Shown one piece after another: positions 28,455 through 40,901 of a DNA stretch of 49,390 nt. The DNA comes from Balneolaceae bacterium (GTDB taxonomy: Bacteria; Bacteroidota; Rhodothermia; Balneolales; Balneolaceae). Numbering within the stretch: the stretch's first letter is position 1; each line of letters opens with the position of its first letter. The position numbers were made by a program, and so were the translations under genes. The DNA is taken from the NCBI GenBank assembly GCA_007693295.1, contig REDT01000182.1:1-49390 (forward strand), written 5' to 3'. Below the pieces are notes generated by a model. It was given only the letters and a program-made list of their open reading frames with translations. It ran no database searches and was not told the origin of the DNA.

Positions 28455-29765
28455 TTACCGTCTTAAGGCAAATTCCCAATCATTGGCATCTACTTCATTT
28501 TCTACACTGTAGAGAATATCCATAGAATATACACCAACTGCCCATAAAAAATATTTGGCATTTTCGGGACGATTTTCAGCGGTCCATCTGTAAACAGACA
28601 AATACCCAAGGGCTACCTGTTCAAGCTGGGGATCTGAGAGTTGATCCGGGTCGGCATCTGAGGGGATAGTAAGGTTTTCCTGGGCCCGGATAAAATCCGG
28701 ATTATTGTACTGCTCTTTATTCAGTTCATAAATAACCGGCCACAAAAGCGGATCGCCCATTTGTGTATCTGCAATTGTCCAGTGCGATTCACCGGAACGT
28801 ACCAAATGGGATTGCAGTTCAAAAGGGAATGGATCGTCGTCCGGTTGCGGTACAGCTTCAGGCTCTACGGTAACTTCTTCTTCAGGTTCCGGGTCAGGTA
28901 CGGCAGGCGGCTCCGGCGTTACCACCTCTTCATTTTGCGTTGTGGCAACTTCTGTAGGGACCTCAGTTCGCTGCATCATTAAAAAGATGATCAAAATTGC
29001 GATGGCTACAATCACGGCGGCCGCTGCATAGGTCCAGTTCATTCCCGATGATTTCTGAGCTTTTTTCTTAAGCGGGGCTCTCTTTTTTTCTTCCTTCTTT
29101 ATCGGTTCAGTAGGGATTTCAAGGGGCTTCTCCTTAAAGATATCTTCAGGTAATAAATCAGCCTCTTCGCGACTCTCTTTCGGCTCCATTACCTGTACCG
29201 GCACCGGTACAGGCCTTTCGATAAGCATATCTTCACCATCATCAATCTCCTGCTCATCTTCAACTTTCTCCTTCTCCTTAACTACATCTCGATCCTCTTT
29301 TGGCGGCTCTTTTTTTGGTGAGAATTTTAGTTTGGGTACGGGTATGATAAGCTTCCCGGTTCCTCTTTCATCCTTTGGCTTCTCCGTTACTTTTATTTGA
29401 ACGTCATCCGGTAGAGTCTCTTTCTTCTGCTTCTTAACAGGGGTGTCATCGAGGACTTTGGTTTTTAATTTCGCATAAGGCCGGTTAACCTGTTCCCTAA
29501 GGTCTTTGTACGGCTTAAATACAATCTTATTTTGGCCGGGTATGGTAATCTCCTCCCCGGTTTGTGGATTTACGCCTTCACGTTCGTTCATCCACCTGAG
29601 TTCGAATTTTCCGAAACCGGAGATACTTACAGATCCGCTCTTCTTCAGGCCCGATTCAATGATCTGGACGAGTTCACCGATAAAGCTGTTGGTCGCGTTT
29701 TGACTCTGTTCCGACTGCTTTGCAATCAGTTCAACCAACTCTTTAAAAGTAATTTTTTCACTCAT
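28455..29765 (-). CDS. membrane-anchored HU-like protein with periplasmic LysM domain
   Basis: The 436-residue fusion has a bacterial HU/IHF domain at residues 1-95 (SEKITFKELVELIAKQ, GFGKFEL, and the DNA-binding arm GVNPQTGEEITIPGQNKIVF followed by KPYKDLR). A long charged Pro/Lys/Glu linker follows (96-240). It has one membrane helix at about 245-265 (YAAAAVIVAIAILIIFLMM) preceded by KKKAQK, placing the HU end in the cytoplasm. An acidic Pro/Glu-rich periplasmic stretch leads to a LysM-like motif at about 320-368 (HLVRSGESHWTIA, LLWPVIYELN, NLTIPS). An upstream in-frame start at 29792 is possible, but ATG 29765 begins the HU fold directly. It overlaps the preceding HU gene by 8 bases. Topology suggests a DNA-to-peptidoglycan link (inference). 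Confidence 0.88.
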   Translation of the reverse strand: MSEKITFKELVELIAKQSEQSQNATNSFIGELVQIIESGLKKSGSVSISGFGKFELRWMNEREGVNPQTGEEITIPGQNKIVFKPYKDLREQVNRPYAKLKTKVLDDTPVKKQKKETLPDDVQIKVTEKPKDERGTGKLIIPVPKLKFSPKKEPPKEDRDVVKEKEKVEDEQEIDDGEDMLIERPVPVPVQVMEPKESREEADLLPEDIFKEKPLEIPTEPIKKEEKKRAPLKKKAQKSSGMNWTYAAAAVIVAIAILIIFLMMQRTEVPTEVATTQNEEVVTPEPPAVPDPEPEEEVTVEPEAVPQPDDDPFPFELQSHLVRSGESHWTIADTQMGDPLLWPVIYELNKEQYNNPDFIRAQENLTIPSDADPDQLSDPQLEQVALGYLSVYRWTAENRPENAKYFLWAVGVYSMDILYSVENEVDANDWEFALRR

Positions 29766-30051
29766 CTTCGCGGCCTGTAAACTTAAGTTCACTTTTCAGG
29801 CCACTTGCCGGCGAAAACTCTACAACACGTTTAGGGGGTACCATTAGATAGGCATCATGATGCGGGTTGTAGACTTTTTGTACCTCTTTAACTTTTACAG
29901 TAAAGGTGCCCAATTCGGGTATGGAAACACCGGTACCTTTACTTAATTGATCTGATAAGACGGAGATAGCATCTCCAAGTAATTCTTTAGTTTTTACTTT
30001 TGAATTACCCGTAGCCTCGGCTAGCTGATCAATCAAATCGCTGTAGTTCAT
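29758..30051 (-). CDS. HU-family DNA-binding protein
   Basis: The 97-residue HU/IHF-type protein starts MNYSDLIDQLAEATGNSKVK and has the signature segment IPELGTFTVKVKE. The arm region YNPHHDAYLMVPPKRVVEFSP is less basic than canonical HU and carries His/Asp residues. It might differ in DNA binding or pair with the HU domain of the next gene. It is the first gene of the minus-strand unit HU, HU-LysM, Dabb, and it lies divergent from aconitase. Confidence 0.9.
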   Translation of the reverse strand: MNYSDLIDQLAEATGNSKVKTKELLGDAISVLSDQLSKGTGVSIPELGTFTVKVKEVQKVYNPHHDAYLMVPPKRVVEFSPASGLKSELKFTGREDE

Positions 30052-35551: not shown

Positions 35552-36247
35552 ATGGAACGGGTTATAAAAAAGTATTATCCGAATGCTGAAACGGGTCGTG
35601 AGATCACGCGTTCGTGTATTAATAAACTTATTGATAAACATGGGTTTGATACTCAAAAAACAATTCTTGGAACGTCGGTTTGCAGCGATGAGATTGTTCG
35701 CACGTCAACGAATTTCAGGGATTACATAGATCATAAAAACCCTTTTTCGCTGGGTGGGCTGGGAGGCTTTCCGTTCACAGGAACCACCGGTTTTGGCGCC
35801 TTTGCCGCACATATTCCCGATAACGGGTATGCAATTATCGAATATGGCCCTCATATCGGGGTGTCGAAAACAGGTGCCGTTGGTAATGTGCAGCGCATGG
35901 GGCAAACACTTGAAACCACCTGTTGCGGCGCATTAAAAGCTTCGGTTAACGACATCCTGAAGAAGCAGGCCGGAACAAAAGACAGTGACCTGGATTATCA
36001 GCAGTGGAAACTGGAGGAGCAGCTATTACCCGCAGCAGAAGATATTGGTAAACACGAAGTGCCTCTTGTTGCGGCAACAGATGTAATGTATCAGCAAATT
36101 GATAAACGCATTAAAGAATTGCTGAAGAAGAGTGCCGGGAGTTTTAAGAACACTACCGTTGTACTAATTGGCGGTATAATTATAAACACAGATTTTGAAC
36201 TGCCTGATTGGTTCGACCTCAGGGAGTTTTCAGTAGAGATATTTTAA
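35552..36247 (+). CDS. LCIB/C-family beta-type carbonic anhydrase
   Basis: The 231-residue protein resembles the limiting-CO2-inducible LCIB/LCIC proteins of algae and their bacterial homologues. Conserved blocks are GTSVCSDEIVR (Cys44, Asp46, Arg50), FSLGGLGGFPFTGTTGFGAF, HIPDNGYAIIEYGPHIGVS (His101) and TTCCGALKAS (Cys124/Cys125). A Cys-His-Cys zinc site with an Asp-Arg dyad is the beta-carbonic-anhydrase pattern, so CO2/bicarbonate interconversion is likely. There is no signal peptide, so it is cytoplasmic. No carboxysome, Rubisco or bicarbonate transporter gene is nearby, so the role is probably supplying bicarbonate to carboxylases or pH control. Confidence 0.8.
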   Translation: MERVIKKYYPNAETGREITRSCINKLIDKHGFDTQKTILGTSVCSDEIVRTSTNFRDYIDHKNPFSLGGLGGFPFTGTTGFGAFAAHIPDNGYAIIEYGPHIGVSKTGAVGNVQRMGQTLETTCCGALKASVNDILKKQAGTKDSDLDYQQWKLEEQLLPAAEDIGKHEVPLVAATDVMYQQIDKRIKELLKKSAGSFKNTTVVLIGGIIINTDFELPDWFDLREFSVEIF

Positions 36248-39498: not shown

Positions 39499-40389
39499 TT
39501 AAGCCCATCTTTTTATCATCTCGGGTGTCGTTTTTAAGTAGGTATCAATAACTCTGTACCAGGGGTATCCAACCAGGATAAGCTGAATTACAAAAGCGTC
39601 GAAACGTATATTCATCGTCAGGGTAATTCCAAAATGCATACCAATCAGCAGGGTTACGGTATAGGGGCGTAATTTTTTCCACCACATGGTAAAGCCAATA
39701 AATTCCGTCAACCAGCCGATGAGCAGAATTATTGATGCAACAGCAGTACTCCCCAGAGCCATTTGCTGCAGAAGATTCGGGTTATAAACTCCCTCTCTTG
39801 AGAGAATGTCGATACTCTTTTCACTGATCCACAGCCAGAGATGCCGGCCATCATACCAGTTAATTCCCGTTCCGATCAATTTTGCGAAGAAAGCAGACGT
39901 ATAGCCCAGGCCGATGAAAAAGATAATTGAACCCATTACAAATCGAGGCATCTGTTTCTGCCCCGGGAAAAATATGGCGCCAATAGCCAGGCAGAATACC
40001 GACATTCCGATCAGGTTTTGGCTGTGAGGTATTTCACCCTGTGAAAAGCGAATAACATATTGGAGATGGAAAAGTAAAATGATAACCATATAGAGCCACC
40101 TGGGCCCCATCCGGAAGAAGGCAATCACGATAAGCAGCGTGATCAAAGATGCATTAATCAGTGCCAGGTTATAATCAAAGAAAAGAGATACGTCAAAATA
40201 GTTTGCAATCCCCAGCGGCAACACTACTTCCATATTGCGAATCTGAGAGTAGATACCCCACTCCCAAACGAATTTAATGGTGTAGAAAACGATAAACGCC
40301 TCAAAGAGTTTGAAGAAGATCAGCTCTCCGGGTGTCTGCTCTCTGTCGGGTTCAAAAAGTTCTGCTCCTATTTTATGATACCATTTCAT
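39499..40389 (-). CDS. polytopic membrane protein, HTTM-like
   Basis: The 296-residue protein has about seven hydrophobic helices and a hydrophilic N-terminus with a conserved-looking ELFFEP-type start (IGAELFEPDREQTPGEL). The arrangement and motifs such as WYDGRHLWLW and EFIGFTMWW recall HTTM (vitamin-K-dependent-carboxylase-like) membrane proteins, but I cannot confirm catalytic residues. Its start overlaps the stop of the preceding 171-residue gene by four bases. The two form one unit. Confidence 0.6.
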   Translation of the reverse strand: MKWYHKIGAELFEPDREQTPGELIFFKLFEAFIVFYTIKFVWEWGIYSQIRNMEVVLPLGIANYFDVSLFFDYNLALINASLITLLIVIAFFRMGPRWLYMVIILLFHLQYVIRFSQGEIPHSQNLIGMSVFCLAIGAIFFPGQKQMPRFVMGSIIFFIGLGYTSAFFAKLIGTGINWYDGRHLWLWISEKSIDILSREGVYNPNLLQQMALGSTAVASIILLIGWLTEFIGFTMWWKKLRPYTVTLLIGMHFGITLTMNIRFDAFVIQLILVGYPWYRVIDTYLKTTPEMIKRWA

Positions 40390-40901
40390 TGCTGCCCCCC
40401 GCCAATATATCGTGAAGGGTCGAGATTTGGATTCTCAAAAACACCATCTTCGGTAACAAGGAGCCAGGGGACAATTTCAACGGCTACAGAATCTTTACCA
40501 ACCAGCTGTCCGTGAACTTTCACCGTCATCCACTTCATTCCATCTTTTGGATATGAGCCAAACATGTTGTTCAGCGCTGCTTTTCGGGGTTCAGTCCAGT
40601 GTTCTGTTTTGGAGATAAAATTGGAGAAATCGATTTGGTCTACCCCGTATTCTCTCACCGGAACAGGTGGCCACTGCCGGTTTTCAAGCGAGTGTTTCTC
40701 CCAGATCAGCTCTTCGGGCTGATCGGTTACATCCAGTACCATAGCCCGTGTCCATGGATTGCCGGCTTGTGAAAACATGGGATAGATGCTGAATGGCCAA
40801 AACTCACCCTCGTGAGTTGCAACCAGCAGTGCGTACACCAGAAGGATAATGCCTATCACCCTTATCCCTTTTTTTGTGGCTGTAATTTCCATAGAAATCA
40901 T
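40386..40901 (-). CDS. single-pass membrane protein, partner of the HTTM-like protein
   Basis: The 171-residue protein starts with a basic segment, has one membrane helix (about 13-28; VIGIILLVYALLVA) and a short HEGEFWPFSIYPMFSQ motif just outside the membrane, followed by a soluble domain of about 120 residues that is probably periplasmic. The WPFSxYPMFS motif recurs in small proteins next to HTTM-like genes, as I recall. Function unknown. It is coupled by an ATGA overlap to the next gene. Confidence 0.6.
   Translation of the reverse strand: MISMEITATKKGIRVIGIILLVYALLVATHEGEFWPFSIYPMFSQAGNPWTRAMVLDVTDQPEELIWEKHSLENRQWPPVPVREYGVDQIDFSNFISKTEHWTEPRKAALNNMFGSYPKDGMKWMTVKVHGQLVGKDSVAVEIVPWLLVTEDGVFENPNLDPSRYIGGGQQ

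Follow-up and report, generated by a model that had tools for sequence, protein, structure and literature searches.

In a 49,390-nucleotide stretch of DNA from a Balneolaceae bacterium (contig REDT01000182.1; hereafter, the window), two overlapping genes encode a small soluble HU protein and a long membrane protein that joins an HU domain to a LysM domain (HU-LysM). The domains, the pairing of the two genes, their overlapping layout and their deep conservation were all computed directly. The most likely function of HU-LysM, to which we give about an even chance, is to tether DNA to the cell wall, a reading that presumes DNA binding at one end, wall binding at the other and a membrane crossing in between.

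Domain architecture of HU-LysM

The HU-LysM reading frame (ATG at 29765, stop at 28455-28457) and its coordinates were confirmed; a GTG at 29792 is an unlikely start, since relatives keep MSEKITF as the start. The gene pair comprises the following features.

28455-29765, minus strand: HU-linker-TM-LysM-tail gene, 436 aa (ORF, Pfam, homologue survey, AlphaFold)
29475-29765, minus strand: HU domain, residues 1-97 (PF00216, E 2.5e-24; pLDDT about 90; Z 9.6 to 1p71)
29532-29591, minus strand: predicted DNA-binding beta-arm, residues about 59-78, which contains N-P-Q-T-G and resembles the HU/IHF arm
29037-29474, minus strand: disordered charged linker, predicted cytoplasmic, residues 98-243 (pLDDT mostly <50 over about 108-232)
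28968-29036, minus strand: single transmembrane helix, residues 244-266 (hydropathy peak in the protein and its relatives; helix in the model)
28827-28967, minus strand: Pro/Glu-rich linker, predicted periplasmic, residues 267-313 (pLDDT mostly low; net acidic flank)
28653-28826, minus strand: LysM domain, residues about 314-371 (profile to Kbp/TsaP/phage LysM; Z 10.1, rmsd 1.2)
28458-28652, minus strand: conserved helical tail, residues 372-436 (four helices at 378-435, pLDDT 93-98)
29758-30051, minus strand: small soluble HU gene, likely partner subunit, 97 aa (PF00216, 2.8e-19)
29758-29765, minus strand: 8-base overlap ATGAGTGA, with the HU-LysM start within the partner's last codons

An AlphaFold run on the alignment of 40 homologues also used for profile searches produced an HU fold that includes both strands of the arm; a linker without ordered structure and a single helix follow, and then a LysM fold with a tail of four helices. 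The architecture claimed in the first-pass annotation (HU, linker, one helix, LysM) is borne out by this model and, for both end domains, by the profile searches; the structure prediction proposed there as a check indeed recovered the HU and LysM folds at the two ends with helix 244-266 between them, and the length given for the charged linker (about 145 residues) agrees with residues 98-243, which are disordered in the model. The placement of HU on the cytoplasmic side by the positive-inside rule holds as a prediction, with basic residues before and acidic residues after the helix in most homologues, and these flank charges suggest an N-in topology.

The HU domain is matched by PF00216 over residues 7-94 (85.8 bits vs. 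a cut-off of 22.4), and Pfam reported nothing strong outside this region. PF18175 stayed below its cut-off (15.8 vs. 35 bits), and the domain is not of the PF18174/PF18175 type; Pfam gave no SPOR match either, the C-terminus consisting of LysM and the helical tail. The 40-homologue profile picks up HU/IHF structures at 3e-26, and the modelled domain was compared with a DNA-bound HU structure (1p71, with the Z score listed above). Residues P67, T69, I75 and P76 are invariant across 40 Balneolaceae HU-LysM proteins, in which the arm retains (in E. coli HU-beta numbering) P63 in 14/14, R58 in 13/14 and T65 in 14/14 of the sequences compared. Retention of an arm with its intercalating proline favours DNA contact in this family. 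In HU-LysM proteins of a second order, presumably Bacteroidales, the arm proline is replaced in 13/14 (mostly by Val), with the partners keeping it in 14/14, so that DNA contact there would lean more on the arm of the partner. The net charge of the window HU is +1 (weakly basic) and that of the partner is -2, as compared with +4 for E. coli HU-beta.

The LysM assignment comes from the family profile and from modelling. The Pfam LysM model (PF01476) gave no reported match to the window protein itself; among 14 close family members it finds 8 at E <= 0.1 (lowest E 8e-4), and its cut-off is exceeded by one homologue, L116 (22.6 vs. 20.9 bits). The C-terminal part of the family profile finds solved LysM structures (Kbp/TsaP/phage) at about 1e-6 to 2e-10. 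Modelled alone, LysM plus tail reaches a pLDDT of 95.1 and has its best structural match in the LysM of E. coli Kbp (YgaU; in GINKO1; Z 10.1, rmsd 1.2 over 54 residues), a small protein that binds potassium and, unlike HU-LysM, has neither an HU domain nor a membrane helix. The fold, a beta-alpha-alpha-beta LysM fold, also resembles glycan-bound LysM structures; LysM and tail together would form a periplasmic, peptidoglycan-binding module. The tail (378-435), absent from the first-pass annotation, is highly conserved in close relatives and displays a weak TPR-like similarity (Foldseek, VIA-align; Z 5.6 to FimV TPR3). A similar-looking C-terminal stretch is seen in L144, a member from the second order.

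A conserved pair of overlapping HU genes

In nearly all relatives, the gene immediately before HU-LysM encodes a small HU. The 8-base overlap described in the first-pass annotation is exact and has the same length in 14/14 loci first checked; it measures 8 bases in 29 and 4 bases in 8 of 46 Balneolaceae pairs, and 4, 8 or 11 bases in 25/27 pairs of the second order, the two genes overlapping in 67 of the 73 pairs measured over both orders. Such a layout would allow translational coupling. Relative to the closest relative (L005), no amino-acid change is found in either HU, with 6 synonymous changes in the partner and 6-7 each overall, and dN/dS is 0.20 over the whole long HU-LysM gene; by this comparison both HUs are under purifying selection.

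In a tree of 63 HU domains, all HU-LysM HUs form one clade (98/91) and all partners form another (support 100/97), both spanning two orders and lying apart from soluble HU and IHF. Since this tree is based on 101 columns and includes few soluble HUs, it supports, without proving, a single ancient pair. Two separate clades over two orders are the pattern expected of fixed heterodimer subunits and, combined with fixed pairing and overlapping genes, indicate a heterodimer like IHF. Thus, the soluble HU, treated in the first-pass annotation as a mere neighbour, is most likely an obligate partner, and the evidence points to an obligate HU heterodimer at the inner membrane. Like IHF alpha/beta and HU alpha/beta, the pair consists of two distinct HU subunits with a common fold and an arm with N-P-x-T-G; it differs in that the HU-LysM subunit is membrane-fixed, with linker, TM and LysM, and in that its gene overlaps that of the partner.

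The two HU genes stay together even where flanking genes differ completely. Their neighbours in the window are aconitase, Dabb, CHAD and Smr genes, and those in other genera include radical SAM/HemN, FAA hydrolase and aminotransferase genes; no chromosome-segregation gene was seen beside the pair. Neighbouring genes were discarded as a functional clue, being unrelated and changing between genera. Elsewhere in the window, we noted a protein with an LCIB/C-type beta carbonic anhydrase domain (35552-36247; PF18599, E 8e-59) and two overlapping minus-strand ORFs of 296 and 171 aa at 39499-40901 without a Pfam match at 1e-6.

Distribution of HU-LysM

A scan of genome contigs yielded 14 full-length relatives, 13 titled Balneolaceae and one Chitinophagaceae. 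The latter (L006, 'Chitinophagaceae bacterium') carries genes up to 83% identical to those of the window in the same order, and is probably a mislabelled Balneolaceae bin. A class-wide survey at 1e-12 matched 77/245 genomes, including 74/92 Balneolaceae, the three matches outside this family being short soluble HUs. Among the Balneolaceae matches are 49 distinct proteins with HU and one clear membrane helix, 48 of them with an in-frame LysM after the helix and the sole exception (L065) having its C-terminus in another frame. Basic residues before and acidic residues after the helix are the rule in this set, and the length of the cytoplasmic linker ranges from 44 to 261 residues across the family. 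A full-length match was absent from some near-complete Balneolaceae genomes (e.g., G013, G044), which implies that HU-LysM is not universally required.

Beyond the family, a sample of 394 genomes of the phylum contributed a full-length match from another family (G505) as well as partial matches from a further one. A search of the second order, queried with an alignment of four HU-LysM proteins from outside Balneolaceae, found matches in 26/198 genomes from about 20 families; of 27 distinct proteins with HU and helix, 26 have a LysM match, and a small HU gene on the same strand adjoins each of the 27. The architecture search suggested in the first-pass annotation, where the combination of HU with LysM was called less familiar, has thus revealed a two-gene family that is widespread in the phylum and parallel to HU-SPOR. 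A one-off fusion or assembly error is ruled out by the 49 and 27 distinct homologues. A phage origin was likewise rejected: among the matches listed, those from phages cover the HU part alone, and none reach 80% of the query. Our literature searches, which did not reach the HU-clade survey of Burroughs 2017 (Cell Cycle), found no paper on HU-LysM.

A parallel HU-SPOR system

The genome that contains the window also encodes an HU-TM-SPOR protein of 447 aa (L110:5130-6473, minus strand; G000:C46), whose gene has an FtsK gene in its vicinity and sits immediately upstream of ExbB/TolQ-, ExbD/TolR- and TonB-like genes. HU-SPOR proteins of Bacteroidota (PF18174 and PF18175, HU-CCDC81_bac_1/2, followed by TM and PF05036 SPOR) share with HU-LysM the predicted plan of a cytoplasmic HU, a long linker, one TM and a periplasmic wall-binding domain. 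They differ in ending in SPOR rather than LysM and, in the same genome, in an HU from which the beta-arm is wholly absent, whereas the Balneolaceae HU-LysM carries a PF00216-type HU with the full arm.

Searches with the CCDC81-type HU models (PF18174, PF18175) identified, in other Rhodothermia families, a small CCDC81-type HU gene followed by an HU-linker-TM-SPOR gene, the same order as in the HU-LysM pair; this two-gene split form was seen in L083, L090, L093, L096, L098, L099 and similar loci. In members of the second order, a single HU-HU-SPOR gene encodes one protein with both HU domains and SPOR. A PF18174 protein (open frame of 314-428 residues) occurs in 22 of the 27 HU-pair genomes outside the class, and of five such proteins tested, SPOR was matched in 4/5 and both HU domains in 5/5. 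A swap of LysM for SPOR at one locus is ruled out, as the two systems occupy separate places in the window genome and in others. The LysM and SPOR versions, which coexist in one genome, are parallel systems and not alternatives; HU-LysM can be placed beside the known HU-SPOR proteins as their sister, with an arm and a LysM anchor.

Proposed function and alternative explanations

A DNA-wall tether is the simplest reading because arm residues and a fixed HU pair are joined here to a membrane helix and LysM. In the cytoplasm, the product of the small gene would pair with the N-terminal HU domain of HU-LysM in an IHF-like heterodimer that binds DNA via its arms; the long disordered linker would let this dimer reach from the inner membrane into the nucleoid; and the single helix would cross the membrane, with LysM and the helical tail gripping, on the periplasmic side, either peptidoglycan or a protein bound to the wall. 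So assembled, the complex would tether DNA to the wall, as a distributed nucleoid-envelope anchor or for chromosome positioning.

A functional precedent, by analogy, may be found in the LysM anchoring of a chromosome-positioning protein: HubP of Vibrio requires its LysM to reach the pole, for which LysM also suffices, and once there HubP positions a chromosome origin through ParA1 (PMC8789113). The polar landmark proteins HubP/FimV/TspA resemble the predicted layout of HU-LysM in having a periplasmic LysM, one TM and a long charged cytoplasmic part. They differ from it in lacking a DNA-binding domain, HubP acting through ParA1, and in having LysM and the cytoplasmic part at opposite ends relative to HU-LysM; an acidic repeat array with cytoplasmic TPR, a feature of these proteins, was not seen in HU-LysM, which carries HU. 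Points against a tether are the weakly basic HU, the loss of the arm proline in the second order, the absence from some near-complete genomes and the lack of an adjoining segregation gene. LysM of this subtype is also found in Kbp and phage baseplates, where wall binding is not required, and this too counts against a tether.

Low net charge and the missing arm proline of the second-order membrane subunit would also suit HU domains that serve as a protein-protein interface alone and have lost contact with DNA, as has been proposed for the CCDC81-type HU. The retained arm residues of the Balneolaceae proteins, the strong PF00216 scores and the weak scores of CCDC81-type models argue against such a loss of DNA contact, which we regard as improbable. 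Similarly low is the probability we assign to a division-linked factor that, together with HU-SPOR, would hold DNA in place or shift it with respect to the septum, in nucleoid occlusion or in segregation during division. The location of the HU-SPOR gene of the same genome, near FtsK and upstream of Tol/Ton-like genes, and the co-occurrence of PF18174 proteins with HU pairs outside the class both speak for it; HU-LysM genes, however, do not adjoin division genes, and septum specificity is known for SPOR, not for LysM.

Slightly more plausible than either of these, albeit still unlikely, is a membrane-bound regulator, in which LysM would sense the state of the wall and the HU pair would change DNA structure and transcription at particular loci. 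Its topology class would be that of ToxR/CadC-type proteins, which use other DNA-binding domains; site-specificity is possible for IHF-like heterodimers, and the helical tail could serve as a sensor or protein-binding module. Yet HU domains are architectural, not regulatory, the pair has no constant neighbour that could be its target, and a linker so long, disordered and variable in length is poorly suited to passing a conformational signal.

Overall, it is the evolutionary conservation that makes a link between wall, membrane and nucleoid the leading idea. Only tentatively, and with less confidence than in the tether as such, we envisage an ancient two-subunit HU complex that links DNA to peptidoglycan along the wall, with the armless HU-SPOR acting in parallel at the septum. 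To our knowledge, the positioning of the chromosome relative to the envelope is poorly understood in this phylum, and a single polypeptide that directly joins DNA, membrane and wall would, if true, provide a simple physical tether. Being small, conserved and found in many genomes, the HU pair opens the tether idea to testing, and a cell that has HU proteins of both kinds, ending in LysM or in SPOR, offers an internal comparison.
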